From positions 29,267,498-29,331,497 of the forward strand of contig NC_026660.2 of the NCBI RefSeq assembly GCF_000004075.3: a stretch of DNA of 64,000 bases, read 5' to 3'. Origin of the DNA: Cucumis sativus. Taxonomy: Eukaryota > Streptophyta > Magnoliopsida > Cucurbitales > Cucurbitaceae. The notes under the pieces were generated by a model, which was not told the DNA's origin, did not search any database, and was given only the letters and a program-made list of their open reading frames with translations. Below are positions 4,065 to 63,770 of this stretch, in pieces (within the stretch, counting starts at the first letter, position 1; every line of letters begins with the position of its first letter). The position numbers and the translations under genes were made by a program.

Positions 4065-6023
4065 ATGGCTTTTAATCTCATCTCCCTATCTTTCTTTTCC
4101 ATTTTCTCCTTCGCCATTTTCGCCTTCTCCGCCGCCGACGACATCACGGCCGCCGAAACACTCCCCGTTCCCCATCACCACCACCACCACCACGCTCCCT
4201 CGCCCGCACCATTACCTCCACCGACCCATTTGCCCCTTCACCCTCCCGTCCATCCTCCGGCTCACCCACCAGCACACCACCGCCATCACGCCCACGCCCA
4301 GGCTCCTGTTCACCCACCGGCAAATGCGCCCTCTCACCATCTCCCTCCAACTCACCCACCGGCTCCCGCCCACCACCACCACCACCATAACGTCAGCCCA
4401 GTTCATCCCCCGTCTCACTCGCCGGCTCCGATCTACCCTCCGAAACCTCGGTTGGTGAGGAGCTTCATTTCGGTTCAAGGTGTTGTGTATTGCAAGTCCT
4501 GTAAATACCCGGGAGCTGACACACTGCTCGGAGCTACCCCCGTCGCCGGTTAGTTATTCTAAACTCTTCTAACATAAATTCTATCAAACTTACATCTTTT
4601 GCTCCCTTGAAAGTGTTGAAACTTTTCAGGGTCCTCTGTTTTAGCTTTAATTTGCTTTAACTTGTGTCATTTTATTCTCTCTTAATTTACTATGTACCAA
4701 CACATTCCTTCAAATCTCATTATTGTCCACTCTTTTAATAACAATTAGGATCTTATACTCCATATTAGATTTAGTGCATTAAAAACACCACAATGAAAAT
4801 GTTAACTTATTTTAAAGTATCACAATGTAGTATAATAATATTCAGTTTTGACATATATGCAACTTTATTCTTCTGTTTCGTCTGAAGGACTTCATACTTA
4901 TAGCTTCTCATTCACGATGTTAGTTTCCTTCGATTTAACAAATACATCTACTTGTATGCACCTCATTGTACCTATAGAAAAAAAAAAGATGTAAAAACAT
5001 TTTTTCACATAATTAAAAACAAAAATACCATGTGTTAAACCCTAATTTTGTAATTGATGCAACTTTTTTAAAAAAAACGATCAAGTCATTTAGTCTTCTT
5101 ATTCTTACAATAGCACTCATGAGAGTTGCAATCTTAGTAAAAACAAAAATAAAAATTTTAAACTCTTTTTTAAAAAAAAAAAAAATTCAAGATGTGACTT
5201 TTTCTTATTAAAAAAACATGGAAAATAGTATATAAAATTTAAAGGTATACAAATTGGGTTATAAACTTAATTAAAAAAATTTATGAAAACTTACAAGATA
5301 TTTCCCCTCTACTATAAAAACAGAAGGAAAGAAAAAAGAAAAGAAAAAAAAAATGTAGATGTTGAAACAATTTAGTTAAAATATAATTTTAAAATTTTGT
5401 AATATGAGAGTTTGTTTAACTTTAGTAGTGTACACAGTATACTTTTAAATTCCAAAGTAAACTTTTAATAAATCTTAATTTTGATTATTTTAAACTAATC
5501 TTAGATTTATTAAAACCATACAAACTAAAATTAGACAAATAAAATTAACCACGTAGGTAATAATAATAAATATTTGAAAACTAAATAGTATCACGAGGCA
5601 AAGATGAGTAAAAAAGGCTGCAACTTTGCAGTATGACATGATATGATAGATAAGGTATAAATGTAAATGTAACGTAATTGTTGGTAGATGAAGATGATGA
5701 TGATTAATTGCGTGACAGGTGCAAGCGTGAAGCTAATCTGTCAGAACACTAAATACCCATTGGTTCAAACAGCAACCACTGACAAGAACGGCTATTTCTT
5801 CATCACAGCCCCAAAGGCCATCACCAGCTACGCCTTCCATAAGTGCAAGGTCGTTCTCGGCTCTTCCCCTTCCCCCACTTGCACCAAGCCCTCCGCTCTC
5901 CACGGCGGCGCTGCCGGAGCCCCTCTCCGCCCTCAGAAGTCTTACATCGACGCCAATAAACTCCCCTTCGTTCTCTACTCCGTTGGCCCTTTTGCCTTCG
6001 AACCCACTTGCCCTCATCATTAG
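4065..6023 (+). CDS. AGP31: Non-classical arabinogalactan protein with His/Pro-rich region and PAC domain (AGP30/AGP31-like)
   Basis: Two exons, 4065-4548 and 5719-6023, joined by GT-AG phase-1 splicing to give 262 residues. Residues 1-24 form a signal peptide. Residues about 25-120 are low-complexity: a run of seven His, then repeated Pro-Ala/Val-His-Pro-Pro units and a second His run, as in AGP31. The C-terminal half, about 120-262, is a PAC domain of the Ole e 1 type with six Cys, starting at the YCKSCKYPG motif and ending PTCPHH. Family knowledge: such secreted proteins are O-glycosylated on hydroxyproline and bind cell-wall polysaccharides; the His run can bind metal. The 1,170-base intron falls inside the PAC domain just after A-T-P-V-A. 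The symbol is the family name; AGP30 is equally close. Confidence 0.9.
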
Positions 6024-9000
6024 TCCTCGTTTATGCTTCTTCTTTTTAATTCTTATGCCTTTTCTTAAACGATGTCGTTTCTTTGGGTTCTGAATTCTGC
6101 TGCTGCCTTTCTGTACGGCATGGTTTGGTTGTTAGTTTGTGTTTTATGAGTTTGGATATTATTTATGGTACAAATAATCTGTTAACTTAAATGTTCTTTT
6201 TCTTATATTTTCTTTTCATAAAGTGGCTATTAGATCTAAAAAGGTAAGGGGTGGAAATCGATCGGTACAAAGTATTTGGTTCCTTTCTTTTCTTACTTCT
6301 TTTCAACCGATTTCACTTTAATTCTGAGCATGTTCCTTTCTCAAGAAACAAACAACACGAATTTGTGTTTGTAAGGAATAATGTAAATATTAGTTTGATG
6401 GAGACGTTCAAATTGCCCTACTCTACACAAAATGATAAAATGTCTATTTCTATTCTTACAATTTATAAATTATATTGATTCAAACTTATATTTAATATTT
6501 ATATTAAACGACTTTTACAAGCAATGACTTTTGATTATTTTTTTGGTTAACTTGATTTTGAAAAAGTTAGATGATAAGTCTTTTATTGTTTTACAATTGA
6601 AACTTTGAAATGTGGTGTACATTAATATTCTTACAATATTTTAGGAGCAATTTTGTTTAACATATTTCATTATAGAAATTTTAATTTAAATGGTAAAAAT
6701 TCTAAAATTATTTATAAATAAAACAAAAAATTTAAATCTATCTAGATTATATCAATCGTAATACTCTTTTCATATTTTTGTAAAGATTTTTAGTTTATAG
6801 AAAGTAATCCTTCATTATTGTTCATGAATTTTGAATAATAAGTGAGGGGGATTTTTGGAAAGGGTAGAAAGGGAAGTATGGTTTTGGGTTGTGGACCAAC
6901 CAATCAATAAAAAGGAAAGTTGCATGCAAAAAAGATAATACTTTTTTTTAAAAAAATAATAAGAATAATAATTGGGTCTATGCTTTGTTAGACCGTTTCG
7001 GTTCGCCAATAATGCTGCTGACCACTACTTGCCTTTTTCAGACCCCACGCGCCTCTCTCTCCTCTCCAATCACGCTCTTAAAACATAATCATTATTTGTT
7101 TTATCTTCCCTTAAACAAAATTATTCTAAATAGATTACGAGTTATGATTGTAATTATCGAATGGGCCGATCTGTATGGCCCATTTAACAACTACCCACAC
7201 GGCCCATTTCCCTTCCTTTTCTCTCTATGGGCTGTTGCCTCACTCTCTAAAATAAGACCGTGAGGGCTCCACTGTTATTGCATTCCAGTCCACGTTGTAA
7301 TCATTGCTAATATATATATACATTTTAGAAATTTCTTGTTCAACACTTATTGTACATTTGATTTGCATTTTGTTAAGAAGTAAATAGTTTTCGCTAGAGT
7401 TGATTGTCGGAAGTGGCAGTCGTAGTTAAGTTAAGGGGCGGTTGTGAGTTGTGACCACGACAACTAAGTGAAAATGTAGATGATCTTAGAAGCATTTTTT
7501 TCGTAATTTTAAGAATAATGGTCAATCTCTCTAGCTCTTATTTGTATTTAAAGGCTTTAAATATCATTTTTTAGTAAACCTAGCTTATATTGTAAACTAT
7601 TTTTTAAAATAAGTGAAAAATATATATTTTGAGTGTTTGAGTTAAAAAGAATTTGCATAAGTTTGGTTTGAAAGATGTTTTTTTTGTTCAAGTCCTCACA
7701 TCTTTTATAATAAGTGATTTGGTATTCAAGTTTCCCACTCTTAAAATTAAGTTTAAACAGTTATAGAGAAACAAAATGACTAAAAGAGTATATTTTAGAA
7801 CTAAAAAACTAGAAAGATCAAAGTTTTGAAAACACACTTATGAAAGAGAAACATATTGGACTAAAAAGTGGTTACCAAACACTGAAAACGTATATGTATA
7901 TATATTAAGTTGAGAGGAAAAGAGAGAATTTGAAGGTTGTGAGTAGTTGCAATACATAGCATCTAAACTAATTTAAGACTGCCTTTCACACGTGAGATTT
8001 AATTACCAACAAAACGAAAATGACACACAAAGTCAAATTATGAGTCTATTTCTAAAATCAATTTACCATTTTTGTTTCATGGATGAGCGAATGGAGCATT
8101 CATTTTTTGGTTTCTAGTTTTACCAAACTTATTTACTACAATATATTTAATAAACCTAACCATGAACATTTCTGGCCCTTAAACTTCTACACACATATAT
8201 AAAAGTAAAAAAGCTCTAATGTTAATATTATTCGGAAAAAATAGTTTAAATTATACTTTATCTATCCTTTTCCTATCCTTCCTCCTCTATGATTCTTTAT
8301 CTCTCTTATTCTTTCTTCCTTGAAAAGTGAAACAAAAGAAGGACTATAACACTGACGATAATGAGAGAAAGGAAAAAAAGTTGAACTACAAAATTTGAGT
8401 TTGAAAGAGACTTTTTTTTCAACTTCGTATTTTTTACTTTCAAACAACTTTCTTCTTTGGCTTAAGAGTATTGAAGAAGAGAGAAATTTCCATGCCATAT
8501 TTTGAAGTCTTATGTAATATAATTACCCATCTTTTTCAAAAGAAAGGGAAAAAGGAAAAAAGAAAAAAAACTAAGGTTAAGTCAGGCGACGGTTCTTTTC
8601 AAGGTTACATTATAACATGTTGACCTCATTTATTTGTGTATGATACTGATGGTGGTGAAATTATGAATTAAAATATTTGTCAACACATTCCAACTTCGTG
8701 CAATAATTAATTTTTAAAAATAAATCAAATTTGACATTGGGAAGAACCCTTCAACTATTTTTTTTTTTTTTTTTAAAAAAAGCCAATAATTAAACGGTGC
8801 CATTTAAGTATTTGTTTTGTAGAGTGAAATAGATAGATACTTAAATGACTGTAAATCCATAATTCTCACCTACTTAAATTAATTATGAGTAACGTTAAAA
8901 ATATAATAATGGTTAGTTTTGATATAAAAAAATAATGGAATAGGGGACAAAAATATCGAACCTTAAATGCTGGAAATAATGAGAGGGTAAAAGAGGGACT

Positions 9001-10237: not shown

Positions 10238-10912
10238 ATGAAAATTTCTCATCCAAATTCCTCCTTCACTTCTTCCACTTCAACCACCACCGCCGATGCC
10301 TTTCAACCGCCACCCCCGAAAATCCTTAACAGATCCGATTCCACTAATCCATACCCCACCACTTTCGTTCAAGCCGATACCTCTTCCTTTAAACAAGTTG
10401 TTCAAATGCTCACCGGCTCCCCGGAAACCGCCAAGCAAATTTCTACACCAGACCCTCCTTCTAAATCCTCCATCCCTCCCATTAAATCAATTCCCAAACG
10501 CCAACACTCCAATTTCAAGCTCTATGAGCGAAGAAATGCCCTCCATAACCTCCAAATTATCAACCCTGTTTTTGCCTCCTCTGTTTCTAGTCTCAGACAT
10601 AATAACCATAACCTCCCTGAAATTCTCTCTCCCAGTATGCTGGATTTCCCCTCACTCGTCCTCAGCCCCGTCACGCCTCTCATTCCCGACCCCTTCGGCC
10701 GATCGCAGCCGTTGAATTCTGAACCGACGAACAATGTCGGTTCTAGTAATTCGGGTTTGGATGAAGAAGCAGAGGCTAAAGCCATTAGAGAAAAAGGATT
10801 TTATTTGCACCCTTCACCGGCCACCACTCCCAGAGAATCGGAACCGGAGCTTTTGCCACTATTTCCGATCACTTCCCCTCCGCGACCAGGTCCACCTCCT
10901 CCTTCTTCTTGA
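10238..10912 (+). CDS. VQ4: VQ-motif protein, VQ4/MVQ1-like
   Basis: Single exon, 224 residues, as most plant VQ genes are intronless. The VQ motif FKQVVQMLTG is at residues 51-60, preceded by FVQADTSS. Several Ser-Pro and Thr-Pro sites follow (LSPSML, LSPVTPLIPDPF, PSPATTPRE, ITSPP), the arrangement seen in VQ proteins phosphorylated by MPK3/MPK6. The C-terminal EKGFYLHPSPATTPRE block is typical of the VQ4/VQ13/VQ31/VQ33 group. Known role of that group: nuclear cofactors that bind WRKY factors and restrain immune gene expression until phosphorylated. The start is the first ATG after a CT-rich leader with no in-frame upstream ATG. The exact orthologue rests on gene order with AT1G28280 and is an inference. 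Confidence 0.9.
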   Translation: MKISHPNSSFTSSTSTTTADAFQPPPPKILNRSDSTNPYPTTFVQADTSSFKQVVQMLTGSPETAKQISTPDPPSKSSIPPIKSIPKRQHSNFKLYERRNALHNLQIINPVFASSVSSLRHNNHNLPEILSPSMLDFPSLVLSPVTPLIPDPFGRSQPLNSEPTNNVGSSNSGLDEEAEAKAIREKGFYLHPSPATTPRESEPELLPLFPITSPPRPGPPPPSS

Positions 10913-13593: not shown

Positions 13594-15253
13594 TCACTTC
13601 CACAACTCTTCCATGGGGATGCCACGCTCTTGTGCAACGTCCCTAAACTGTTTCATCTTCTGCACGGCGACCACTGTTGCTCTAGCATTGTTGAGGGCAT
13701 TATTACTTCCAAGTTGCTTCCCTAAAGCATTCTCGACACCGGCCATTTCGAGGACGATTCTCACTGCTCCACCAGCAATCACACCAGTACCAGGAGAAGC
13801 AGGTCTTAGCATTACTTTTGCTGCTCCATAATCTCCCTCCGACCTACAATTTTCAACTCTCCTTAGCTAACACTTATAGTAACACACAGCAACTCAAGAT
13901 GTGAATATGACAAAAGTATTACTTCACTAGCATTCATAACTTGAAGCTTCATTTGATTTAGGTTCTCACTTCCTGGAATCTGCTATACTTTTTAACTCTT
14001 TACATTTACGTCTAAAAAGGAAATCAGTGTATATATCTCTTGCTGTCCATATGCTTATTGGGTACTGATTCTTTCAGCCATAGAAACACTGGAAGATCGG
14101 TCGAAACAACAAGTTCTCCACAGTTTAATTGTAGCAGAGTAGACAAAACTGTGAAATAGACCATCTAGTATCTACAACAGACAACTAAAAACATTTACAA
14201 AATTCAGCCACAGAAGCAGCAAATACCTCCAATGACCAACTTGCAGTGAGGATTCAAAGTTTAAACTGCCTACAGATTACAGAATTCGTATTAACTAACT
14301 TAAAAAGATGTCAATTAACCGTTGAAAAATTAAGTCAAAGATTCCTATAAATCAAAGTACTCATCCAATTCTACTCTTCCTTAAATCCCATTTCAGAGGT
14401 GGGATTGAACCATCCACCTTTCAAATGGTAATGCTTAACTTATCAACACATTAGGTTCAAGTTTCATACTCCTAATTGAATGCATTCCCATTATCAGCAA
14501 ACCAAAAGCTTAACAAGAGAGCAGCTACAGAAACTCCAATCAAACAATTCCAGTTTGCAAATCGAAAATAGTCACAAACCTGTGGGGAAATGTTAGATAC
14601 TTGGTCATGGGAACGGTGACAATGTTCCGGCGAGCATTAACTGCCGATTTCTGAACAGCGGTGATGACTTCCTTAGCTTTACCAACACCAACACCCACTT
14701 GGCCCTGTTTATCACCCACAACAACAATTGCCCTAAAATGTAACTGTTTCCCACCTTTAACCACTTTAGTAACCCTCCGAACTTGGACAACCCGCTCATC
14801 GAACCCATCTCGCGGCTTGTCCTTCTTGGCCTTGGAGCCGAACCCGCCCGCTTTCTTGACCTTAGAATCCATTACATAAATGTCGTTTCCGAGAACACTG
14901 ACTCCACTGTAAGCGGGGCCATAGATCTCCTCGTAACCAGCGGCAATTTCTTCCTCGGTTTCGATAGGGCCCTCATCGAAGGAGGGAGGAGGGACGAAGC
15001 CTTCGGGGACTTCGGGAGGGTCGTAAACGATGTCTTCTTGGGGATTGACGTTGTCGAAGAAGGTGGTGTCGATGTCAGAGGATTTGGCCCGAGTTGCAGA
15101 GAGAATGGAGGAAGAGGAGGAGGAGGAGATTGGGAGTAGGAATACAGTGGAGTGGAGGAGGGGGAAAGGCTTGAATAGTGGAATTGAGAGGCGGTGGGAA
15201 GGAGAAGAACGAAGAGAAATAGAGGAAATGGGGACGAGAGTCGAAGAAGCCAT
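13594..15253 (-). CDS. RPS5: Chloroplast 30S ribosomal protein S5 (uS5c) precursor
   Basis: Two exons, 15253-14580 and 13843-13594, spliced at phase 2 across a 736-base intron to give 307 residues, close to the usual length for plant plastid S5. Residues 1-55 are Ser-rich and basic ([20 protein letters not shown]), a plastid transit peptide. An acidic linker follows, then the S5 N-terminal double-stranded-RNA-like fold ([28 protein letters not shown]) and the S5 C-terminal domain ([29 protein letters not shown]). The exon junction falls within FPHRSEGDYG. It acts in the small subunit of the plastid ribosome; loss is embryo-lethal in Arabidopsis (EMB3113). An in-frame ATG at 15406 exists, but the transit peptide begins naturally at 15253. 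Confidence 0.95.
14392..14465. repeat. Possible SINE-like fragment in the S5 intron
   Basis: Read on the minus strand it carries a degenerate B-box-like segment (GGTTCAATCCCACC) preceded by a gap-and-purine pattern seen again near 41.1 kb. No target duplication or poly-A end could be defined. The assignment is tentative. Confidence 0.25.
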
Positions 15254-16434
15254 TGAAGGAAAGATTGAGAAGGTTTGTGGGTTCGGAGATGGAGGCTTAT
15301 CCCAATGGACTCTACACGGGTAAGGCGAAGAAGTAATCATGTGCGAAGAAACTATACCCAAAACGACGTCGTTCCTTGTGCTCAAGTGCATAAATGGATA
15401 ATTCAATTTATTAATTCTTTTTATAAAAACCTACTTTGATTATTTGGGAATGTTAACAAAATAAAAGATTATAAAGCTTTCATATTTTTACTTTTCATTT
15501 CATATTATCCATCTTTTCTTCTCTTCTAACTTTCAATATATTCTAAATTATATGTCTATATTTACAATAAATGAATTTGATAGTTTTGGGGTACGGCTCC
15601 TATTAGCAAACCAACAATCCCGTATGGAGTCATAATTCTCTTATCAACGCATCCAATATATATGCATGCATACCAACATATCTTTTATCAATATCAACTA
15701 AACTTACTAAAGATCAAACCAAAATATTAAATTATATTTCTAAAGTTAGAGCATATTAAATAATTTTAAAAAACAAACTCTTTTGTGATGAGAAATAATT
15801 AACCTTTAATTCTCGATCATAAAACTCATGTGATTGTTTTTGACATACAATTCAATCCATGAATTATAAAATCTTTGAACTAAATGTGAGAAGAAAAAGC
15901 TCAAAAGCTAAATTGAATTGTTGGTAAAAGTTTTAAAAACTTCCAATCCCTTCCACCAAAACCCTAATGTAACATAGTAAAAGGATGGAAAAAAAATACC
16001 AACTACCTAAATGTAAGAATCAAAGTAGAAAATATCAACAATAAAATTATAAAAAAGAGAGAAATTAACCAAAAAAAACATTTACCCTAAAATTCGTGTG
16101 TAAACAAATCTTATCTTTAAGTTGTTTTTTATATACTAAAAAAAACCTCAAAATAAAATGTAATCACCAAACGAAAACAGGATCAGTTAGCCATGACAAC
16201 CAAATTAAGGAATAAGCACAATTTCTAACAAAAGGAAAAATGAAATTCTAACTTGGAGTAATACGAAAGAAATAACAGGAGACATAGATTAAAGTATGTA
16301 TGTAGAACAGTAAACAACAATTGATAAATTAAGAATACAAATATATGAAAACAAAGGGTAAAGGGTAATGGTAAGGTAATACAGATTGATATATAATAAG
16401 ATATAATTAAAAGTAGTAATGTGATGGGGAAGAG
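15254..16434. other. Spacer between S5 promoter and LEC2-like 3' end
   Basis: Begins with the S5 5' leader and promoter, including the perfect palindrome at 15362-15373. The rest is AT-rich; roughly the last 200 bases are likely LEC2-like 3' UTR. No gene seen. Confidence 0.55.
15362..15373. promoter_or_regulatory. Palindromic AACGACGTCGTT element upstream of plastid S5
   Basis: A perfect 12-base palindrome with a GACGTC (C-box) core, about 110 bases before the S5 start codon. GACGTC is a bZIP-type site, and ACGACGTCGTTT-like palindromes recur near plant transcription starts. A related imperfect copy is near 6067-6080. Confidence 0.45.
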
Positions 16435-19400
16435 TCAGGCTGTGCCATTATTACTGGTGAAATAGTCAAAAAGAGGGAACTTGAATCCACTGACTTCAGG
16501 AAGAGTATCAAGGCCTCCAAAGCAATCTTCAAACCCCACATTACCATTATTGATATCATTATTAATATTATTAATCCCTTGGAAATCATCTAATATTAGT
16601 TGTTCCTTATAATTAATATGATTTGTAGAATTAATCATGGTATTGATAGGTGGATTAGCAGTGAAAAAGGTGGTGGGATGGCTGTGGTGGTCTTCAGCTT
16701 TGTGTTTAAGCTCTTCGATTAACAAAGCTAAAGAAGCATCTTCTTCTTCGTCTTTCACCTGATCCTCTATGTTTGACGACAGACTAAATTGTTGCTGCTG
16801 CTTCTGCTTGTAATCTTCTTCCATTCTTGAACGATTCTCACTTTTTTCAACTGCTACATACTGTTCTCATATACAACATCTATGTAAAATATACTTCTAA
16901 CACATGGTTTTAATTAAATTCACTTTTTAGATGCACACATTTGAACAAATTATATAGTCAATTAACACAGTTGTCACTCATCTCTGGTTATTATCAATAA
17001 CTATCTCATAAATATCGTCTCTATTATTACTATTCAATTTATAACTAAACAATCCTGTCAATAATTTTATGAACACATATGTGCAGATAGATACACATAT
17101 ATTGATATACAGACATGTATGCGTATATCTATATGTATATATCCAATTATGAATTTTATGAAGTGAAACGTTTTAATTGATACAGAAATAATTAAAATGA
17201 ACCTTGGAGTTTATGAACAGATTTACAGGAATCATTTAAATTAAGCTAAAGCTTCTTTTTTGATAATTTATCTTGTAGTTATTTCATTTTGATTATTATA
17301 GTTTTAAATGTCTAAATTTCGTTCTACTTAACAAAAAAAAAAAAAAAAAGGTTAAAATCCAGTGCCATTGTCATTTATTCTATATAAATTTTAGAAATAT
17401 ATATTTTAAAATAGTTTTTTTTAATGAAAATTACTACTGTTATATGGTTTAAAAAAACGAACTTCAAATGATTTAATTGTAGTTAAATGGTAAATCTAAT
17501 CCCAATTTTAAAAATAAAAAACCCAAAATTTAGTCTTTATGATATAAAACCTTATAAATAGATTATATAGTTTGATCAAACTAGAAAGATGAAATTTTAA
17601 ATTGAAATTTAAGATTTATTAAAAACATAGTGAAGTAAATTCTAAAGTATAAAATTTAAAACTCAAAAAATTAAAATAAAAGGGAAATTCATAATACATA
17701 AACTGAATTAAAGGAGAAAAGGCTTAAAAAAAGAATATAAATTACCATAAGCAATTGGCAGACGAAATTCAAAACAAAAATGAAAAATGAAAAATGATGA
17801 GAATGTTTCAATTTGATTGAAAGTGGTAAGAGATGACTTGGATGGCCCCACGAATAGGGAAATCCTATCTGTCAAAAACAAAGTTAATATGAAGAAGAAA
17901 TAAAACACGAAATCTTACGTGTCAAAAACAACTGTTATTTTTTGTCCATATTACTATTACAATATATTATCTCTCTATACGCATATTTCCAAGCGTTACT
18001 AACCACCAAATTAGGAAACTCCACACATCATTATTTTCTTACTAATTTTAACCAAATTTACAAAACAAAAGTCAAATTTCGAAGGAGAAAAACAAAAAAA
18101 AAAAAAAACAAAAAAAAAGAGAGAAAAGAGAAAAGAATACTCACGAGGTTCTTGCAGTCATCTTCGTATAGGGTCATTGCATCTCCCATCAAAAGACCAT
18201 TTTGTCTTACGAATTCCCCTAAAATTAAAATTAAAAAATTGGAAATGAAAATCATTATTCGGAAAATTAAGAAGTAAGTTGTTTGGTTAGGGTTTGTTTA
18301 ATTTGTAGAAGTGAAACCTGTGTTCTCCAGAACATACATTCTACTTCTGTTGTTTGCCCAGTACCTATATTAATTAAACTCAACAAGAATTTCAAGGGGT
18401 TAATTAATTCATTAATTATGAGGAAAAAAAGTGTTAAATTTCCAATGAATCCATTAATTAATTAACACAACAATTGTAATTTTGTTTTTCCTTTTTTTTT
18501 TGGGGGGGCTTACTTGTATTTCATTGTCCATCTTCTGTTTGAGTTCACATCTCTCACAACAATTTGGAGACCTTCCTTATCAGTGAGAAATGGAAGGTTC
18601 TCTTCTGCCTCCCTCTGTGATGCATATATGCACAATATTTGCAAATTCTCAGCAAATTAAACAAAGTGTGTCTATTAGAAAATCAAGATTCTAATTAATA
18701 AGCTATTTTCAAATTTCTCTTTTCTATTTACTTAGGGTTTGGGATTCGATCAAAGTGTGATCGATGATATATATAATTAGTGGTAATTAGTTCCAGATTG
18801 TAAAGTTGTGTACAAATAAGGTAGAAATTAATCTCTGAGTACAACAACAATAAAATTTTAAAAAAAATGAAATTTGATTAAAGTTTTATATTTATTCATT
18901 TTCCAATACACCAAAAAAAAAAAAAAAAAAAAAAACAATAATAGGGTTTCTTTTTTAGTGTTAAGTTTTTCCTATTTTGTTGTGTGTAGGTGTTAAAAAA
19001 AGGGGTGAGGGATTGTGTGTAATTTTGGTTTGTAGTTATTCATTCCTCTTCCTTTTCCCATTTGCATGTTTTTTAGACGAAGTTTTATCTTATTTTCACT
19101 GTTCTATTGAAATAGCAAAAAAAAAAAAAAAAAAAAAAAAAGAGATCTAAAATAAGGGTAAGAAAATCCAAACCTTGGGGAGGACAATCCTGCCCAAAGA
19201 TCCAACATCACTGTTCTTCAGCTCCTTCTTCAGTAGCATTCTCAAAATCTTAAGAGACAAAAAAGAAAAAACAACAATTAAAGGAAAAGTAATCAATACA
19301 TATACATATATAAATGAAAACTTTGATTAAACATCATAAACCTTATTGTCAGGAGTACAAAAGGTGAAAAGATGGCGATTATTATGTGAAGAATCAGTAT

Positions 19401-19866
19401 TAGGGAAATGGGTTATAGTTAAACCCTTAGAATAATCATCATGATAACCACAGGAAGAAGAAGAAGAGGATCGAGTAGTGAAAGAAGTAAGGGTTCTTTG
19501 ACGAGCAAGTCTTCTATTAGTTCGAGCCACTTTAGTACTCCAGGCATCCAAAGCCTTTTTTCCATCATCTTTAGGAAAAACAGACTGAATGTTTGGCTCA
19601 TCGAGCCCATAGCTAAGGAGGGTGGGAGAATGAGGAAAACGGGGAGCAAGTGGTTGTGGTTCATGAGACGAAGAAAAAAACGATTGTGGGGCTGAGGAGG
19701 AAAATGAGGCCAAGCAAGTTTGGGAGAGAGTAGGTGGGAGATAACATGGATTTTGTGGAGGAGAGTGGAGATTAGTGGTGGGGGCGGTGACGGCGGTGGA
19801 GGGGAATGGAGGGAGTTCATGGTGGTGGTGGTGGTGGTTCTGGTGGGGGTTGTGGTGGTCATCCAT
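16435..19866 (-). CDS. LEC2: LEC2-type B3-domain transcription factor
   Basis: Six exons: 19866-19342, 19248-19174, 18614-18514, 18364-18318, 18218-18145 and 16860-16435; all phases agree, giving 415 residues. The N-terminus is His- and Pro-rich. Residues 111-124 (TKVARTNRRLARQR) resemble the basic B2 motif of ABI3 and LEC2. The B3 DNA-binding domain spans about 176-275: LLKKELKNSDVGSLGRIVLP, then REAEENLPFLTDKEG, WTMKYKYWANNRSRMYVLEN, and GEFVRQNGLLMGDAMTLYED. The C-terminal part has an acidic DEEEDASLALLIEEL segment like LEC2 rather than FUS3. Known role: master regulator of embryo identity and seed storage genes, binding RY (CATGCA) elements. A frame stays open upstream to an ATG at 20085, but the LEC2-like MDDHH start at 19866 is preferred. 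Family call from sequence; orthology supported by gene order. Confidence 0.9.
18913..18935. repeat. Poly-A tract (23) in LEC2-like intron 2
   Basis: Homopolymer on the plus strand, poly-T in the sense of the gene. A second 25-base A run (19117-19141) lies in the same intron. Both are prone to length error in assemblies. Confidence 0.85.
19117..19141. repeat. Poly-A tract (25) in LEC2-like intron 2
   Basis: Second long homopolymer of the intron, about 30 bases downstream, in gene orientation, of the exon 2 donor. Confidence 0.85.
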
Positions 19867-32200: not shown

Positions 32201-32312
32201 TTTTGTTGCAGCTGACATGATCGCTCCGATCCCACTCCTCTCGTCTTTGCTCCTCAACCTTTATTCTTTTTTCCTCTAAAAATAGAGAGGGAGATACAAA
32301 TACACATACTAG
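26206..32312. other. Spacer between the two convergent Dof genes
   Basis: Both flanks are 3' ends, so promoters are not required here. It is AT-rich with an AC microsatellite (about 28796-28814), a GT microsatellite near 30326-30340, poly-T runs and a stretch near 31484 (ATCCCACATCC) resembling the snRNA upstream element but with no TATA at the right distance. Several 60-125 codon frames have no recognisable domain. Confidence 0.55.
28796..28814. repeat. (AC)n microsatellite
   Basis: Nearly uninterrupted AC repeats followed by TATATA. Confidence 0.85.
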
Positions 32313-48900: not shown

Positions 48901-50140
48901 GCAGTAGACCACTGCAAGCAGTTGCGATGGCTCCCCATGGAATCAACAGCTGTTACCAAGCCTAGAGTCTCACACAATGCAATAACTCCGAGTGCAATTA
49001 AATTAATAGCATGTAAAGAGGCAAACAGATTCATTATACCTGAATCTCAGCACCAGTCATATAATGCACAAGTGGCCTAATCAGAACACCAATGAGACGT
49101 GCTTTTTCATCAAAAACTGGACAGCCCTCCATTCCTACCAGAGAAAGTATCATAGTTGTAAGAAAGAAACCACCAGAAGAAAACAGAATACAATAGAACA
49201 GAAAGATAAACATACCAGGAAGACACCGCATGTCAGCCATCAGTAATGACTTGCTCAATGAGCTAGGAGGGTAGCAATTGGAAATTGATCCGACCGATAA
49301 GCTAATTTGGTCAAAAAATCAAAGACTACTAGTCACACAACAGACAGCAGATGCAATAACAGACTCAACCTGAATTATTTGACAGTATATTTACCCCTTG
49401 AAAGCAATTAGGATTGGCAAACAAAAAATAGACAAGTAAATTCAGAAACATGTCACCATTGTTAAATATGAAAGAAGAGAAAATCTTCTACAGCCATCTG
49501 CAGAATTTGTAATCAATCAACTACTAACATCTTCAGTGACATTCCAGTATTCCATTTAATCATGCTGAAACCGATACTAACTGAACTAGAAAAACAAGAG
49601 AGGAACGGGAGCATCTAGGATTTAACAAAATTTAAGTGTGAATAGAGTCCTAAAAGTTTGCTAGTCTGGAACTGTTTGAGAACTCAAGGGTAAAATTGTA
49701 TGAACTATGTAACAGATATACCTGTTAAGAAAATGCACTGGTGATAGAACACCAAAAGGAGAACCAACAGCAAGAAGAAAGGATCCTCTCTGCCTTGAGG
49801 GAGATATACTTATGTTTGGCATGTCCTAGAAAGAACTCAAATATTAGTAACTAGCAGTAGACATTACAAGTAAAAAAGACAAAGCTAACGCTATAAACAT
49901 TCATGAAATGCCTAACCTATCCTGCAATCTATAGAATTGAAATTTTCTAATGAATGACAGGTAAGGAGAGGTAGGAATTCACCTTTGAGAGTGAGGGAAC
50001 ACCAAGAATGGCGATTCTTATTGTTAAGTCATTGTTCTTGCTAGATCCCTCCAAATCCAAAAATTTCTGGCTACCAACAGAAGTTCTCTTTTCATTTTCA
50101 ATCTGAAAATGAACCAGAAACTACACTAAGGAGACTTAAA

Positions 50141-50171
<31 letters not shown>

Positions 50172-52182
50172 AAGGCATAAGTATGGAAGCAAAACAAAAT
50201 AAGTGCAATTATATTAAATTTATTGATGGCTCTCTTTCTTTTTCTATTGTTTCCCAAATAGAGTTAAAACAACTTGGGACACTCTGCGAAGCATAATGGA
50301 ACTCTCAGTTTTGATCTAGGTGGGTGCCTCATTTGAGCATTATATTTGGCTTCATCCTAACCCTGCTTTTGTTGCACTTTCCACCAAATTAATAAAAGGT
50401 TTTTTTTTTTTTTTTTTTGGTTAAATGGGTATCGATTCAGTTAGTTGTTACAAGCAAATTCAATTTGACAATGTGCAAATGCTGTAGCTTCTTCTAGGTG
50501 GCGATACAGAATTCTACCTACATTGCAAGTGAACCTTTTATAGTTTTATATAACGATTACCTGAGTTGTCTTGTGATATATACTATATAGATTACAAGAG
50601 AAAGGGAAATATGTATGACAATTAAACTATTTTATCAACCAAAGGACCACTCACCATGCTAAACTCTTACAAATGTGGTATGATAGCTCTTCCTAGAGAA
50701 AATTTGTTTAATAGAATATTAACTCGAACAACCTTCAAATTTCATTTATCAAGCGTTAGGTTCATTTCTTCAAAGAGTATTGTTTTAGTTCATAAATAAA
50801 AGACAGCAGATATTAAAACCTGTCCCCGAAGAGAATCCCTAAAAGATGGAGAACCATTTGTATATGAGGCCAAGGACCAGCCGACCTCCCATCTCTGATG
50901 TAATGAATCTATGGAAGCATCCATGACTGATTGAAGAGCAGTGGCAGATGTAGGTATATCATACTGCAAAATACAGTTAGCTAAATTGACAAAAAAAAAC
51001 AATTGCATGCCAGCTAAATAAATTCAAACAAGCAATAAATTATTAAAACAAAATGTGCAAATGTTTACTATCAGAGGCAGAGCAGGTGAGTAAACATGGT
51101 GTTATTGGGAAGAACACATACTCCTAAATTTACTTAACGTTGTTTTATACGGTAGTGGGATCAGAAAACCTTATAGCTTGAAATAAAACTGACATAAAAA
51201 ATAAAGGCTGAACCTTATCCATGATTACAGAAATTTACCCTGTGAGTTAAACTTCACCCCATAAAAATAGAAGTCTAATTTGGATTTCATGAAACTGTTG
51301 GAATCCCAACTAAATAGTGAGAAAAATGAATGCCTACCAAAGCCAACAAGTGTGCAGCATGCCAGTGAGGAGTTTTGCTAACATCAGAATCTCTCGAGAT
51401 ACCCTGTGTCGCAAGGGATTATTCATATGTGAGTTTTGAATGCTAAATTAACCATTCAAGAAAACTTATGAATTTATCAAATATACAATTACAATTTACA
51501 ATCTTATAAATTATACCTCAACCATAATGTCAATCTGAACACCAGGAATTAACTCAGGCTTTCCCTGCAGCTCGTAAAAAGGCTAATCAAATAAATTGAC
51601 CCAATTAATCACATACATAAGAAGTGGAAAAAATAATTTTATAACTACAACAAAACCCAGAACAGTGACAATTCCCCCCTTCTGCAGCATTGTAAGTGAA
51701 GTTAACCTTATGAATCTTATCTCTGTGTTGAAGTGGCATAAAAGGCTCAAAAATGGAGGAAACAGTAAGAACCAATGTTGCAAATTGATCCTTATAATTA
51801 CCAAGATGCTTAGCGGCCCTGGTGTCATAAAGGGTTTCAGGTAATATCATTCCAGATGCTGAAAGAGTTGTCCTCCCAGAACTTCACATGCCAAAAAAGT
51901 AAAGGGAATCCATTAATTATTTTCCAAGTTAAAGACATACAACCCCTAAAAAACAATCTATCAGATAAGAAATTCTCACTGATACTGATGGAATGCATGT
52001 TTTTGCATCTTCAGGCCCTTCGGGTCCTAAATCATAAGGCTCGCTGATTTTTCACCATCTCAACGGAAATTGAAGCATGGGAACATGGAAAAGGGGCAAG
52101 AAAGATAGTGACTCACAGGGCCTTGGACTCTGACCATGATGGCAAAATTTCTAGCATGATCCACAATTTCACGTTTCGCCAT
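45972..52182 (-). CDS. DEG15: Glyoxysomal/peroxisomal processing protease DEG15
   Basis: Fourteen coding exons: 52182-52117, 52026-51980, 51881-51707, 51564-51517, 51403-51338, 50963-50820, 50102-49983, 49825-49722, 49301-49216, 49134-49040, 48949-48205, 47412-47223, 46456-46365 and 46237-45972. All phases agree, giving 747 residues (Arabidopsis about 709). The N-terminal half is a degenerate protease-like region ([41 protein letters not shown]). The C-terminal half has the trypsin-like triad: His about 419 in [12 protein letters not shown], Asp about 524 in [10 protein letters not shown], Ser about 612 in HPGGSGGAV. The protein ends SKL, a type 1 peroxisome targeting signal. Known role: it removes PTS2 presequences from imported matrix enzymes such as malate dehydrogenase and thiolase. 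A 5' UTR exon lies upstream near 53701-53820. Confidence 0.95.
50144..50171. repeat. Poly-G tract (28) in DEG15 intron 6
   Basis: Twenty-eight consecutive G on the plus strand, 42 bases upstream, in gene orientation poly-C downstream, of exon 7 start; it lies in the intron between exons 6 and 7, close to the acceptor side. Poly-G this long is rare in plant DNA. Confidence 0.9.
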
Positions 52183-53595
52183 GACAGGAAGATTGGCTGA
52201 TTTAGAGAAAGAGTACAAGTTCAAAATAAAAATAAGCTCAATTGAAAAAACAATTATGCACTTTTTCCACCATTCCTATGAAAATAAACTTAAAATTCAA
52301 AGGCGAGATAATGAAATGATTCTGCTATTGCCTTCAGGTAGAAGCTTACAATTTGTGAAACCACACTAGCCCAGCCAGGCATCCACATTCTAATACTTAT
52401 ACCGAGTAAATAAAAAGATTCTCAACACATTCCTTGATGAATTCACTGATCTGAATTGTCTGGTCTTAATTTTGCATTAAGAAATGTGTTTTCTACAACT
52501 AGGAGTTTGCTCGTTTCTCCTACAACCTAAACTAAACCCCTCAAGCCACTAGCATATCATGAGAGGATTTCCTATCCATAACACATAGGATTGTCAATTT
52601 AGAAGAAAATGCAAAAAAGATCCTTTACGCATAGGATTATACTCTTTATTTTTGTCAAAAAAATCAACGTTCACATAATAAAAAAAACTAAATTAAAGTC
52701 CTTGATTGTTTAAAATCTAAATAAAATTATTAGTATCAATGTCTGTCATTTAAATCTGAATAGAATTACTATTGCCGCTATTTCATAAAACCCCAACTTC
52801 CGTTAAATATCAATTACAGATACCTTATTACTCTCCGTTCTTATCGTAAATACAGTGACATTAATTAATAATTAAATTCAAATGAGAATAAAAACATAAA
52901 ACTACATTATTTACTATACAGCTAAGAATGGATAAAAACAAAAAATCAAAAGTTTTTTTCCCAAGCCATTGTATTATAGACTAAAGGTTTCTTCCAATCG
53001 TCTTCGTTCCGTATTTATCCTCGTTAGGTCATGGTATTACATTCTGTGAATTATCCACAAAAACCAAAGTCATCAAGCACTTACCTTACTAAACTTTCTA
53101 CTTGTGTCCCTTCCGTCTTAATTTGAACTTTAATATTTTTCACTAAATACAGATAATAGAACGGAATTTGAAGATAGTTAAGTTAATTACATTGATTGTA
53201 TGTGAATATCCAATCCACAACCAAAGCACTTGATTACTTGATTTCTCAAGCAGGAATCAAATTGGGAAAAGTCGAAAATCATAATCAATCAAAATAACTT
53301 CAATGATTAATCTTGATTGTACGTTGAAACACATTGAAGAACTTAATGACACACCATAAATTTACAGATATTTATTAAACCCAAGAAAAACACGACCAAC
53401 CGAAAGTATCTTCTATGTTCCTCTCAGAAATATAGTAAATACTTTACTAGCAGATACATGATTATCCGCCAAACGTCCTTATCTATAATAATCGCCCGCA
53501 ATCATCCAAGAAATTCAAATCAACTTCACATGCGGTGAACGGAAGGATAGAAGATAACAGAAAGCGAAGACGAAGAAGATAAATAATGAAATAGA

Positions 53596-53600
<5 letters not shown>

Positions 53601-53627: not shown

Positions 53628-53631
<4 letters not shown>

Positions 53632-53700
53632 AGGTAAGTTCATAGTAAATCCAAAGATAGTTAAAAGACGATTGAAGAAAAATTGTGGGGAATGAGTTAC

Positions 53701-53820: not shown

Positions 53821-53847
53821 ATCAGAAATGTTATCTTACGGCACGCC

Positions 53848-53855
53848 TATTTATA
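53848..53855 (-). promoter_or_regulatory. TATA box of DEG15
   Basis: TATAAATA read on the minus strand, about 30 bases before the inferred transcript start near 53820. This spacing supports the leader exon call. Confidence 0.6.
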
Positions 53856-54925: not shown

Positions 54926-55972
54926 CTAAGCCCATGTTGCCAACAAAGACATGCCTCCAACTCCCATCAAAACAGCAACATAAGCCCATATATGCAGCTT
55001 GAGATTGGCTTGCAATTTTGGCCCCTTGAAATCATGCGCCAATAAATTAACCAACGCCATGTAATTCAGCAACCCTGCCGATAAAGCATTCAAAATCCCC
55101 ACTACTATTAGCGCCGTCGGACTATTCTCACTGTACACGTTCGACAACACAATCCCCAATCCTATTCCAAACGGCGTCGTAACCGAGAAGAAAAACACCA
55201 TTATCGCCTTCATCTTTATCCTGTATTGCGCCTGCAGAATGCACCCTCCAAGCCCCATCCCTTCAAACAGTTGATGAAAGCACAGCGCAGCGATGAGCGG
55301 TCTTATGGTGCACGGATTCTCCGAAGCCCCTAGTGAAAGCCCTATCACTACCGAATGCACTACAATCCCAGCTTCTAGTATTTGCGCGATAACACGGTGT
55401 CGTAGCAATTGCGACCCGAGTTTTTCTCCGGTTCCTTCTTCTTTCCCCAAATTTTCACTCATTTCCTTGCGGTCCTCATTATTGATCTCCTCCTCCTCTT
55501 CTGATAATTGATCCTGCATCGACTGTTTATTGAAGTGACTCAACGAAAACGAGTCCAACATTAGAGTCATGATAGCGGAAAGCATTGCTATGAATGTGGG
55601 GAAAGGGAATTTCCGCCATGGATTCTCTGGCAAACAGGGGGATGTTAAGAAATCGTAGGAATCAGGGAGAACGTGCATATAACCAGTTGCTAGAATCACA
55701 CCGGAGGCAAATGCCTTGACGATTGCAAAGGTTTGTCCGTCTGGATGAAGAACTGGTATGGCGCGGGAGAAGAGAGGAAGAGAAATGCCGATCATGCTCG
55801 CGACTAAAATGGTAGCAATGGAGATGAGCTTGAGTTTGAGGGACTCGGCTCTGTCATGGCAGTCTTGTTGAAGCTGAGCTTCACATTCGGAATCGGGAGA
55901 TGGAATTGAATCTGAAAATGATAGGGAAATGAAGGACAAGAGAAGGAGAAGGAATATGAGATTACGAGCCAT
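54926..55972 (-). CDS. ZIP family zinc/iron transporter, ZIP1-like
   Basis: Single exon, 348 residues. A hydrophobic signal sequence (residues 1-20) precedes eight predicted membrane spans. The ZIP signature lies in spans 4 and 5: HSVVIGLSLGASE with His 206 and ALCFHQLFEGMGLGG with the His233-x3-Glu237 metal site. Span 2 has FASGVILATGYMHVLPDS. The cytosolic loop between spans 3 and 4 (about 145-190) is Glu/Lys-rich with five consecutive Glu and lacks the usual repeated His-Gly metal-binding run. Most plant ZIP genes of this type have two or three exons, so an intact intronless frame is unusual. Known role: uptake of Zn2+ or Fe2+ into the cytosol at the plasma membrane. Substrate cannot be told from sequence. 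Confidence 0.93.
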   Translation of the reverse strand: MARNLIFLLLLLSFISLSFSDSIPSPDSECEAQLQQDCHDRAESLKLKLISIATILVASMIGISLPLFSRAIPVLHPDGQTFAIVKAFASGVILATGYMHVLPDSYDFLTSPCLPENPWRKFPFPTFIAMLSAIMTLMLDSFSLSHFNKQSMQDQLSEEEEEINNEDRKEMSENLGKEEGTGEKLGSQLLRHRVIAQILEAGIVVHSVVIGLSLGASENPCTIRPLIAALCFHQLFEGMGLGGCILQAQYRIKMKAIMVFFFSVTTPFGIGLGIVLSNVYSENSPTALIVVGILNALSAGLLNYMALVNLLAHDFKGPKLQANLKLHIWAYVAVLMGVGGMSLLATWA

Positions 55973-57776: not shown

Positions 57777-60700
57777 ATGCCGGCTCGAAAGCGCGCTTAC
57801 GACTCTCTCGATGTTGATCTTTTGCCGCCGCGACTCCATAATACCTTCAACAATGAACGCTCTCAAGATGAACAATCTCAGGGTACGCTTCTACTTTCTC
57901 TTCACCAACCTTAATTTTCACGATGTACCCTATTCTTTCATCTTCCTGCATTTCATATATCTTATTATTTCTTCTTTTAATTATTTTCTTTGTGTTTGTA
58001 CTGAGTTCGTGGTGTTCTTTCTCGTTCCTTCTTTTCCCAGAATCCGATCGAAGCTCTTCGTCCAGTCAAGGAGATGAGGACGAGTATGTTCCGTTTATGA
58101 GCTCTGTTTTGCGTTTGCTTCTTTTTGTTCGTCTTCTTTTTCGTGTTGTTCCCTTTTACTCTATTTACTCTTTTGATTTATTTCGTCTGGTTGGTTATGG
58201 AGTTTCTTTGGTGGCTAACTGGCTGGGATTGATTTGGGATCTGCATGGTGTGCTTCGTGGTATTGTTCATTGAGGTCTTGCTGTGACCGTATTCGAAGAC
58301 CAGCTGTGTAGGCTTCACGTACTGAGGCACTCGTCGATTTTTTTCCTGCACCGGAGTTTTCCTTACTTTCAAGTTTTGCGTTCCTTTTCCGATTATAGTT
58401 AGTAGAATTGGGAGCTGGATCTTGTGGGAGAAGTGGGTTCTCGAGGTTGTATGTGCGATCAATCTGTTTTTACATATGCTATGAGTTGCTGGGTGGGTAA
58501 TGACGATGGAGCTCACATGGTTTTAGCTTCTTTATGATGTTAAAGCTCACATGATTCGAGATCAATTATTGACTCAACGTGGAATCAAGCTTACTATAAC
58601 TGAAGCGTTCACGGGAAAATTTTGGTGGTTCCCGCCATTGATTATCGGATCCAATTTTACGCAATTTCCAATAGGTTAACGACTGGAAATCCCGGCATTT
58701 CATTAGGAACGACTTTACCCAAATTCTTGACAGCTTGAGCGGTGCCCTTTCGCTCACGCGATGAACGAACTATTTGGGTTTGGGTCGTGTCATAGAATAT
58801 TTGTGTTTGAGACTATGAACAGAAAGTTGTTTATCGGTTCTATAGTTGCATGGTGAACAGTAGAATTCCTTGAACAATTAACACGATCTTAGGTGTTTTG
58901 CGATTGTTCCGGCATCCTAAATTTCTGTCTGGTTTTCTTTTCCAGATTTATCGCCGTGAAACTGTCAGACATTCGGAAAGAAGTTCAGTGTCCAATCTGC
59001 TTAGGTATGTTTGACTAATTCCTTCTTGCTGAACATATTTATCTCACGTAAGAAAAGATTTCTATTGATTTGAACATTTGGTTTGAATACTTATACAATT
59101 TGCGGTCTCCAAGTGCATAAACATGCTTACTACTTGAAAACGATCTAGCTGTTTAATATAGGTTTCAATGTGTTATCCAGGTCTTTACTGACTTTTACAA
59201 GATTGTTGTTACATACTGAAAATCAATCATCATATATAATTAACTTACTTTTGTTAGTTTGTAAACTGACCTACCAATAAGGCTATTTCAAATAATTTAA
59301 TTCCGGGATGAAATGCTGTGGAGTAGAGGATTAATTTTTCCACCTCCGAGTGAGTGAATTATTTCACATATGAGGCTATGGGATTTGGTTTTCATTTCTT
59401 TTGGTGTTCAACGTTCCTATTGGAACCTTACCATTTCAGGCTACATATAAGTTCATTTGGAGCCACTGGTTTGTAATGTTGTTACATGTTTGCACACAAC
59501 AATTTGTAAATTAATGCCCGTATTGTCAAGATTCTTGTTCCTTGCTTTCAGTTTATGCACTGACAGCTAACACGAAAATATCTTCCTTATCATAAGACAA
59601 TAACTAAATTCCAAATCAAAACATTCCTAAAATTTGACATTTTTCAGTGGTTGTATTAAGTACTATGAGCCATGACATTCTAAGTCTTGGCATGTTTGGA
59701 AAATATATTTAGGTGAATTTGGTGAGGTTACCTCAGAGTCATTTTGGATGTTTATGCATGAGTAGTTTTCTTAAGGTGGTCGTTAAGTGTTTTTCAATTC
59801 ATAATGTGCAGGAATCATAAAAAAAACCAGAACAGTTATGGAATGTCTGCACCGCTTCTGCAGGGAATGTATAGACAAATCGATGCGTCTAGGGTATGTC
59901 CTTATGTAATTTTTATTTTGATTTTTCTAATTGATGTACAGCTCAAGAAAATAAATAAGTATCGTCGCAAAGTTTCCCTCTACCTTCCAGTAAACTTGTA
60001 CTAAAATTTGCTGCAGTAACAAGGAGTGCCCTGCTTGCCGCACTCATTGTGCCAGTCGACGCTCTCTGAGAGATGATCCAAACTATGATACCTTGATTGC
60101 TGTGTTGTATCCAGATATTGAAAAATATGAGGAAGAGGTGGGAATATTATGTTTTAGCTTGCAAGCGTGGTGTTTGATAAATGATAATTGATATCGCCAT
60201 TTCTGCATGCTCCAATTTTGTTAATTTATCTCTTTTATGGATAGGAACTGGCTTTCCAAGAAGAAGAGAAAGCTCGTAATAAGCAGGTGAGAAGGCTAAG
60301 TTCTGCGAATTTGTTTGTTTCCAGAGTTAATAAGTTCACTTTACATTGTTCAATATACATTAAACCACATATTTTGTTGTGCTAAAACCGACCAAGAGAG
60401 GGAGAGAGGAATTATTTAAGTCATTATTCGATATGCAATGAAAAGTTGTGGGGGCAATTGGGACATGAAATAGAGCATGTTTTTCTTCGTTGTTGTGCTT
60501 TTCTATTCCATTTAACTTGGAAACATCTCGGGCTGAACATCAAAATGGTTATTATAGATTGTACTTGTATTGGGTATATATGATCACGCTTACTTTTATC
60601 TTCATGTTTTGTTTAAAATGTTACTTTTTGATTATTCTACAGATCCAAACTTCCATAGCTCAGACACTTCAACGACAAACTGAATCTTTGGGTAGGAAAC

Positions 60701-61833
60701 GTTCTAAACCTTCGAGGAGATTAAGTTCTAGAGGACCCAAAAGCTTCCAAAATCATATTGAAAGTCTATGCTTTGATGAGAATGAGGACGAAAATGATTA
60801 TGATGTCAGCAAAAATTCATCTTCTGCTGATGAGCGCATGGACACTAGACCTAAAAGACCCAGGAGATGTGGTCCTGTTAGATTTTCACAGTCTTCTTCA
60901 GCTACCGGAGCAGACGGAGCAGATGGTGGTGGTATTGAACATGAATATGAAGTTAACAAAGAAAAAGTTGGTGCATCTTTAGGGCTTGTTGGTAGCTCGG
61001 AAAAACTTTCTTGGGGCAAAGGTGGAATAAGAAGTCACACTAGATATGGGGGTACAAATGGGGGGGCTGGTAAAATTTCCAGGAATAACCGCATCGCGAA
61101 GCTGTCAGATTATGTTCGAAACTCAGAAAATGTCAGTGAGGAGGAGGTAAAAACAACTATTTGATGTGTTACTAAACTTCCTTATGAATAAACTGTGGAC
61201 ATGTTAACGTGTAGAAAGGGCTCGCCTACTTAATCACATGCATTTTGCTATGCCTCTTTTAGATGCTGCTTAAGAGCTCAACAATCTTTTATTGTTTCTA
61301 TTCATCAATGACTTTTGCCTACTCTTCCTGATTTTAGTTGGACATCCACGTTTTGCTCGTTTCCATGGATAGAACTATACCTGCATTGCAAAGACCATAT
61401 ATTTGCTGCAGGCCTTCAGTGATGATTGGACACCTAAGTCAAGTAATCAGTTATTTAATGGAGCTGCACTTTATCTGTTTAAAGTCTTTATTCATTTATT
61501 TAGTTAATTCTTGAGCTTCCTTTCTTCCACAGTACGTTGCTCTTGAAACCTCACTTTCAGTGGACGTTGTTGAAATATGCGTGGCAAAAGAGCTTCAGGT
61601 GAAACTCGATCCTTCCACCTCTGAAGCGACAAAGAACCCATGTAAAGAAAGTGTACAGATACTAAACGAGCAAGAGACACTATCGACAGCAAAACTCAAA
61701 GCACACAGGCTAGCTTGTGGCTATCTGGTAAAAGTTGCACACTACATTTATAACCATTTGTACAAGCCTTTTGTACCACATTTTAAGCTTGTTCCCTTGA
61801 TTCCAGCTTTTGGCATATAAGAAAAAGGGCTAG
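57777..61833 (+). CDS. RING1: PRC1 RING-finger E3 ligase, RING1 type
   Basis: Ten exons: 57777-57882, 58041-58083, 58946-59004, 59812-59893, 60017-60137, 60245-60286, 60643-61146, 61338-61442, 61533-61727 and 61807-61833; all phases agree, giving 427 residues. The C3HC4 RING finger spans residues 65-104 ([53 protein letters not shown]). A basic and acidic middle follows, then a RAWUL domain (about 320-427): [38 protein letters not shown] and a final LLLAYKKKG. This matches plant RING1A/RING1B. Known role: catalytic core of Polycomb complex 1 with BMI1 proteins, ubiquitinating H2A and silencing embryonic genes. An in-frame ATG at 57696 exists upstream; the MPARKR start is preferred as the shorter, charged N-terminus. 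Confidence 0.95.
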
Positions 61834-63037: not shown

Positions 63038-63770
63038 TTAACGGTGCTGGCTCTTGGTGTCACCGCTGTAGAGCCTGAAACCGCAAAACAAAGAGTTTCA
63101 TGTCAGTTTGATATACGACAAAAATAGAGGACTCATCCAAGCCCTCAGATGTCAGAACCATGACCAAGTCAACAGATCTGACGGCTTTGGATTTCACTCG
63201 GGGGAATCAGAACTTCGAATCGTTTTTTTTATCATCCACCAACTGTTGGGAATATTAAGGACAAGATACCCCAGAATCTAATTTTACTTCACCATCACCA
63301 TAATTATATTCCACTCGGCGGCGCGTGGATTACAGTCGCCCCAGTGAAAAGTTGATGTACGTACCAGTCATAAACAGTTGGAGAATTGGGTTGAGGTTTG
63401 TCGAAGACTTGAGCACCAATAGTCTTGGTAGCAAAGTTTCTACCAGGGTTGAAGACGCTTCTCCAAACATTATCCTTACGCGCCGCTGTTAACGGCGTGA
63501 CAGGTGTGACCGGAGTGGTGGGTGTTGCCGGACTGGCTGGCATAGACGTGGATCTTTGGTATTTGCTTCCATCTCCTTCCAAATCTAAAACCAACAAGGA
63601 ATTTGTATCAAAATGATCAACAAAACTAACTATCAGAATGAAAAGAAGATTATGAATGAATTACCCTTAACGACCAAAGGCTTAGTACTGAGTTTTCTGA
63701 GCTTGCCGAGGCCACGGGTAGGCTGAGGTCCAGCCGCAACATCATCCCAAAGTGTCTCAAGCAGAACCAT
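63038..63770 (-). CDS. DRM1: Dormancy/auxin-associated protein, DRM1/ARP family
   Basis: Three exons, 63770-63665, 63584-63365 and 63074-63038; phases agree, giving 120 residues, the family's usual length. Hallmarks in order: MVLLETLWDDVAAGPQP and RGLGKLRKLSTKP at the N-terminus, a Ser/Thr-Pro repeat (ASPATPTTPVTPVTPLT), KDNVWRSVFNPGRN, DKPQPNSPTVYDWLYSGDT and a basic KSQHR end. DRM1/ARP transcripts rise in dormant buds and fall with auxin or growth; the biochemical function is unknown and the protein is thought to be largely disordered. A TATA box sits about 80 bases upstream. In Arabidopsis DRM1 is next to DEG15; here a ZIP and RING1 lie between. Confidence 0.95.

Follow-up and report, generated by a model that had tools for sequence, protein, structure and literature searches.

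How does a single stretch of the cucumber genome come to unite genes that are split between two segments in Arabidopsis? The question is raised by 64 000 nt of Cucumis sativus DNA (contig NC_026660.2, here C6, positions C6:29267498-29331497; this whole stretch is termed the window), in which relatives of AGP30/31, VQ, ribosomal S5, LEC2, Dof, SPL3, DEG15 and DRM1 genes lie together. A previous sequence-only reading took the window for an ancestral block kept unsplit by a lineage that lacks the Brassicaceae alpha duplication. Analysis of the window and of its counterpart on chromosome C1 leads to a different answer. The window is very probably one of two pruned copies produced by a duplication on a large scale, independent of the Brassicaceae alpha event; the cucurbit-common tetraploidization (CCT or CucWGD1) is the likeliest candidate.

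Gene models made with a simple gene finder of our own (with approximate exon limits and small genes liable to be missed), combined with Pfam domains, give 11 genes. From left to right, they encode AGP/Ole e 1 (+), VQ (+), ribosomal S5 (−), B3 (−), Dof (+), Dof (−), SBP (+), DEG15-like (−), ZIP (−), RING1-like (+) and Auxin_repressed/DRM (−) proteins. Three of them, the second Dof, ZIP and RING1-like genes, were absent from the earlier list of eight named genes. The co-location of these eight between positions 4065 and 63770 is confirmed by the gene models, the Pfam domains, a match to the LEC2 structure and a miR156-type site. When compared with solved structures, the B3 protein matches LEC2 best (6j9c, 156.8 bits), followed by FUS3 (113.1) and VAL1 (∼69), and its domain is nearer LEC2 than FUS3, VAL1 or RAV1 among the eight solved sequences listed, a set without ABI3; judged by sequence, the protein is LEC2-like. 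The SBP gene encodes a protein of 141 amino acids (aa) and is followed, starting 221 bases past the stop codon, by a miR156-type site with two mismatches to the target consensus (match in 0 of 100 shuffles). A short protein and a miR156 site in what is predicted to be the 3′ untranslated region are the marks of the SPL3/4/5 type. In the RING1-like gene, the RING finger has the RING2 chains of PRC1 as best match; it was read from exons other than the one in which the first model carries ∼17 leading residues in the wrong frame.

The neighbourhood does not stand alone in its genome. Whole-genome family searches (226,625,048 bases in 88 contigs, searched exon by exon, so that a gene may be missed) reveal that Ole e 1, VQ, two Dofs, SBP and DRM recur within 70 kb at C1:7685377-7752703, with the same order and strands. 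A region of 200 kb of C1 (C1:7600001-7800000) was fetched together with three 10-kb flanks of the window. In this region, tblastn with the open reading frames (ORFs) of the window (≥20 aa, E up to 1e-3) matches AGP, VQ, both Dofs, SPL and DRM, and the reverse search of C1 against the window agrees. The flanks add a kinase pair to the left of AGP (59% over 297 residues and 49% over 248) and an ERF pair to the right of DRM (76% over 86 residues). Collectively, eight pairs have order and orientation alike on both copies, namely kinase (−), AGP (+), VQ (+), Dof (+), Dof (−), SPL (+), DRM (−) and ERF (−), in blocks that extend over C6:29265176-29350445 and C1:7678188-7780648. An unduplicated block is expected to be single in its own genome, and the presence of the C1 copy contradicts this part of the sequence-only reading. 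The convergent Dof pair is present on both copies (25340-33248; C1:7715521-7724707); by position, it therefore predates the duplication.

Large plant families could in principle yield such a cluster by chance, all the more as SBP, Ole e 1, VQ and Dof each have from at least 15 to at least 36 places in the genome. In a test of this explanation, the places of SBP (15), Dof (36), VQ (33), DRM (5) and Ole e 1 (20) were assigned at random 2000 times (Ole e 1 has 24 matches, of which 4 fall on small contigs and were omitted; for five of the seven chromosomes the length used was approximate). In these 2000 trials, any 120-kb stretch gathered three of the five families at most, with four of five reached in none, and the C6 and C1 regions each gather all five. 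The order and strand found on C1, which are identical to those on C6, likewise contradict a chance cluster, which is refuted and keeps next to no probability.

The two copies differ in content. With the tblastn settings given above, S5, LEC2, DEG15, ZIP and RING1 have no match in the 200 kb of C1, and neither has the FES1-like protein of C6, the gene of which is located just outside the window. C1, for its part, holds genes found only there within the block (Table 1). For the BAC1-like carrier and the RLP4-like malectin gene, the next best places in the genome are 37% and 35% identical, respectively, and EST1/SMG7-type genes match at C1:7.70 and C1:28.43 only in the whole genome. The BAC1-like C1 protein has no match within the window. 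A possible relic of this gene at 45098-45268 of the window (57 aa, 24.6% identity, E 1.4e-4) was dropped as unconvincing, since it is on the strand opposite to the BAC1-like gene and the C1 protein is unmatched there. In the same 200 kb of C1, predicted proteins at C1:7784028-7788038 resemble, as judged from translation only, pieces of a Copia-type retrotransposon polyprotein.

Table 1. Features of the window, of its flank and of the C1 block (positions without prefix are those of the window)
Feature	Position	Strand	Remarks
Kinase gene, first codons	1..17	−	gene runs on to the left, over C6:29265176-29267514; opens the series of C6/C1 pairs, partner left of AGP on C1
AGP30/31-like gene, Ole e 1 domain	4065..6023	+	paralogue C1:7684795-7685691
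VQ-motif gene	10238..10912	+	paralogue C1:7692899-7693651, 140/217 aligned residues identical
Ribosomal protein S5 gene	13594..15391	−	start codon uncertain; no match in C1:7.60-7.80 Mb
LEC2-like B3 gene	16435..19866	−	other genome places ≤38% identity
DofA	25340..26205	+	positional partner C1:7715521-7716069
DofB	32313..33248	−	partner C1:7723799-7724707; Dof domain 55/57 identical
Short SPL3-like SBP gene	41711..43262	+	positional partner from C1:7741096
miR156-type target site	43483..43502	+	beyond the stop codon of the SPL3-like gene; a like site for the C1 partner, near 7744350
DEG15-like protease gene, trypsin domain	45972..52196 (approximate limits)	−	no match in C1:7.60-7.80 Mb
ZIP metal transporter gene	54926..55972	−	no match in C1:7.60-7.80 Mb
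RING1-like gene	57777..61820 (approximate model)	+	one other genome match, C6:11055595
DRM1/2-like Auxin_repressed gene	63304..63770	−	paralogue C1:7752301-7752715
Gene with one CCCH finger, resembles At2g33835 (FES1-like)	C6:29337312-29340199		just outside the window; C6 only
EST1/SMG7-type gene	C1:7701191		C1 only within the block
Repeat-rich LEA-like gene	C1:7710865		C1 only within the block; no Pfam match above cut-off; low-complexity filter could mask a C6 partner
Mitochondrial carrier, BAC1-like	C1:7744791		between SPL and DRM; C1 only within the block
Unnamed ORF	C1:7753648		C1 only within the block
Malectin-domain gene, RLP4-like	C1:7757085		C1 only within the block
Further ERF	C1:7765101		C1 only within the block

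Comparison with Arabidopsis is made through locus numbers, which follow chromosome order. We take LEC2 to be At1g28300, an assignment backed by co-occurrence of names only, and we likewise assume the names DOF1.4 for At1g28310, SPL3 for At2g33810, FES1 for At2g33835 and RLP4 for At1g28340. To our knowledge, the two segments hold only one Dof (At1g28310). The At1g28 and At2g33 segments presumably form an alpha pair, in agreement with their VQ, AGP and DRM pairs, which occur in matching order. The other numbers come from published papers. The first series comprises SMG7L (At1g28260; PMC6232500), VQ4 (At1g28280; PMC4585807), AGP31 (At1g28290; PMC7177597), a Dof gene (At1g28310; PMC3485569), DEG15 (At1g28320; PMC3473262), DRM1 (At1g28330; PMC3596386), a malectin receptor-like protein (At1g28340; PMC9603095), ERF12 (At1g28360) and, next to it, ERF11 (PMC6976583), and an AP2/EREBP gene (At1g28370; PMC3485569). 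The second comprises VQ13 (At2g33780; PMC4585807), AGP30 (At2g33790; PMC7177597), RPS5 (At2g33800; PMC4861020), an SBP gene (At2g33810; PMC3485569), BAC1 (At2g33820; PMC4099941), DRM2 (At2g33830; PMC3596386) and a CCCH gene (At2g33835; PMC2267713). The paper on SMG7L also gives a CsSMG7L for a Cucumis-type accession, where we read Cs as Cucumis sativus (PMC6232500).

With the locus numbers of these papers, gene families of both Arabidopsis segments co-occur in the window. As far as testable, the published numbers fit the two series of counterparts proposed before (At1g28280-28330 and At2g33780-33830), and the comparison with Arabidopsis is supported. In the sequence-only reading, LEC2, Dof and DEG15 would be missing from the second segment and S5 and SPL3 from the first. 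Window order matches the locus numbers except for AGP and VQ, which are reversed on both cucumber copies (the comparison is one of numbers). There, AGP precedes VQ, and on C1 also SMG7L, the reverse of numbers 28260, 28280 and 28290, as if one small inversion separated the cucumber and Arabidopsis lineages. On C1, the BAC1-like gene is flanked by SPL and DRM, the place that At2g33820 has by number. Orthology of the individual genes to those of Arabidopsis would thus follow from families, locus numbers and order.

At first sight, this pattern is that of a lineage without the relevant duplication that kept the ancestral block whole, the block having been split by gene loss in Arabidopsis alone. 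All eight named genes are together in the window and their published counterparts fall in two series, as this explanation expects. The union of the two Arabidopsis ranges is nevertheless incomplete: it holds for the eight genes, but BAC1, numbered within the second range, has its relative on C1 and not in the window. In addition, C1 carries a second collinear copy with eight pairs, and some genes of the Arabidopsis segments are present on C1 only. With genes divided between two copies in cucumber itself, retention of an unsplit block is very improbable, and this claim of the sequence-only reading is not supported. C6 and C1 each carry partners of genes from both Arabidopsis segments, and it is C6 and C1 together, not either alone, that approximate the ancestral content.

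A duplication in the cucumber lineage followed by pruning accounts for these data as follows. The ancestral neighbourhood would have been doubled in this lineage, separately from the Brassicaceae alpha event. Each cucumber copy would then have shed different genes, with loss rather than movement probably explaining those missing, and eight genes would have stayed on both. C6 (window and flanks) would have kept RPS5, LEC2, DEG15, ZIP, RING1 and the FES1-like gene, and C1 the genes resembling SMG7L, BAC1 and RLP4 together with a further ERF. Arabidopsis would have doubled this ancestral set as well and lost genes from it in a different pattern, with the result that each cucumber copy has genes in common with both Arabidopsis segments. 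The mechanism, duplication and then divided gene loss, is ordinary and well known.

Which duplication gave rise to the C6/C1 pair is a matter of date. In the literature, the cucurbit-common tetraploidization is described from wax gourd, with a similar picture stated for cucumber (PMC6856369), and is placed soon after gamma, the eudicot hexaploidy (PMC8969062). This tetraploidization is probably the simplest account of the pair, although sequence does not settle its age. The other candidate is gamma itself, in which case only one of the two copies would be orthologous to the Arabidopsis pair. The proximity in time of the two published events favours gamma as a candidate, as does saturation of synonymous divergence (dS). 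NG86 dS values are near saturation for kinase (1.69), VQ (1.71), DofB (1.89) and DRM (3.12) and undefined for AGP and DofA; YN00 values were obtained in two of eight comparisons (VQ and DRM), and the SPL pair was left out, as a wrong acceptor was used for C1 exon 2 and a stop appeared. Nor do SPL exon 1 and VQ dS separate the C6/C1 pair from other loci. For VQ, dS is lower between C1 and a C4 relative (1.37) than between C6 and C1 (1.71), the third comparison giving 2.80. For SPL exon 1, the window gene is nearer C6:7.36 (39/49) and C4:23.79 (35/49) than C1 (34/49), and the C1 gene is nearest to the C4 copy (39/50); this comparison covers six usable loci (15 SBP places in the genome, nine loci scanned, seven matched and C3:6.63 misregistered).

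These observations weigh against a pair formed by the tetraploidization, and others add to them. In the Dof domain, C6 DofA is no nearer its C1 partner than the DofB of either copy (49/57 each), and over the whole protein C1 DofB (361) outscores C1 DofA (339) in alignment with it. For the C6 ERF, the partner (76% over 86 residues) and the other C1 ERF (76% over 67) are about equally near. SPL and DofA are thus paired by position, without confirmation from their sequences. RALF and tyrosyl-tRNA synthetase genes, which we take to be on both Arabidopsis segments, are a further difficulty: in the exon-by-exon genome search, which may miss a gene, none of 23 RALF matches and none of five tRNA-synt_1b matches are near either cucumber copy. 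Two points nonetheless speak against gamma. Genes numbered in both Arabidopsis segments occur singly on both cucumber copies, which would require repeated reciprocal losses, and the VQ alignment score between C6 and C1 (617, with 140/217 identical) is above those with the C4 VQ relative (457 and 487). A gamma origin is therefore rather unlikely, and the cucurbit-common tetraploidization is preferred. C4 itself carries SBP and VQ genes of the window type at a distance of 59 kb from each other (C4:23788355-23847764), and this neighbourhood (23.79/23.85) may be a more ancient relative of the block, dating from gamma. Neighbouring VQ and SBP genes at C3:31.96/32.03 were considered for the same role and dropped, the VQ protein being by eye of a different type.

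Some genes of the window extend the comparison. For the ZIP transporter, we know of no counterpart in the two Arabidopsis ranges, and its presence reflects either insertion or loss elsewhere. The RING1-like and DRM genes adjoin in the window (57777-63770), as the numbers At5g44280 and At5g44300 suggest for Arabidopsis. In published papers, a RING1-type gene is At5g44280 (PMC2447854), DRM5 is At5g44300 (PMC3596386), a LEA gene is At5g44310 with homeologue At4g21020 (PMC2292704) and ERF9 is At5g44210 (PMC6976583). The likeness is that of RING1 beside DRM, with LEA and ERF9 near by number; this segment lies outside those named before and is set against the window by locus numbers only. These numbers suggest a further homologous segment, in which case RING1 would be an ancestral member lost from both Arabidopsis segments named earlier. 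It is tempting, and rather doubtful, to propose that the ancestral neighbourhood corresponds to further Arabidopsis DNA beyond the two segments (At5g44280-At5g44310, together with At4g21020, by RING1–DRM adjacency, LEA and ERF) and, in addition, that both lineages, duplicating independently, tended to retain the same duplicates. Of 13 shared families, 6 are present on both copies in cucumber, and VQ, AGP and DRM, the three seen on both Arabidopsis segments, all belong to these 6 (chance ∼0.07 by hand arithmetic). RALF and tyrosyl-tRNA synthetase, not found near the cucumber copies, argue against this parallel retention.

The C6/C1 pair can be set beside two systems already known. One is the relationship between the alpha segments of Arabidopsis and outgroups, with doubly conserved synteny and gene loss divided between the copies following polyploidy. 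As there, one cucumber segment matches two partial Arabidopsis segments, but here the outgroup is also duplicated and pruned, and the relationship is two-to-two instead of one-to-two. The pair also resembles products of the cucurbit-common tetraploidization, with two collinear copies in one genome and synonymous divergence close to saturation, as expected of an old event; it differs in that its date may also be that of gamma. A literature search found no paper in the collection covered that joins LEC2, microsynteny and SPL3; the pair is probably already contained in whole-genome synteny lists, and no claim is made as to its unpublished status.

That an outgroup segment brings together the genes of two Arabidopsis segments does not make it unduplicated, and a natural misreading is corrected here. 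The C6/C1 pair is a compact two-to-two case in which independent doublings prune one neighbourhood, that of LEC2, SPL3, Dof and RING1, and it is useful for asking which genes tend to remain duplicated.

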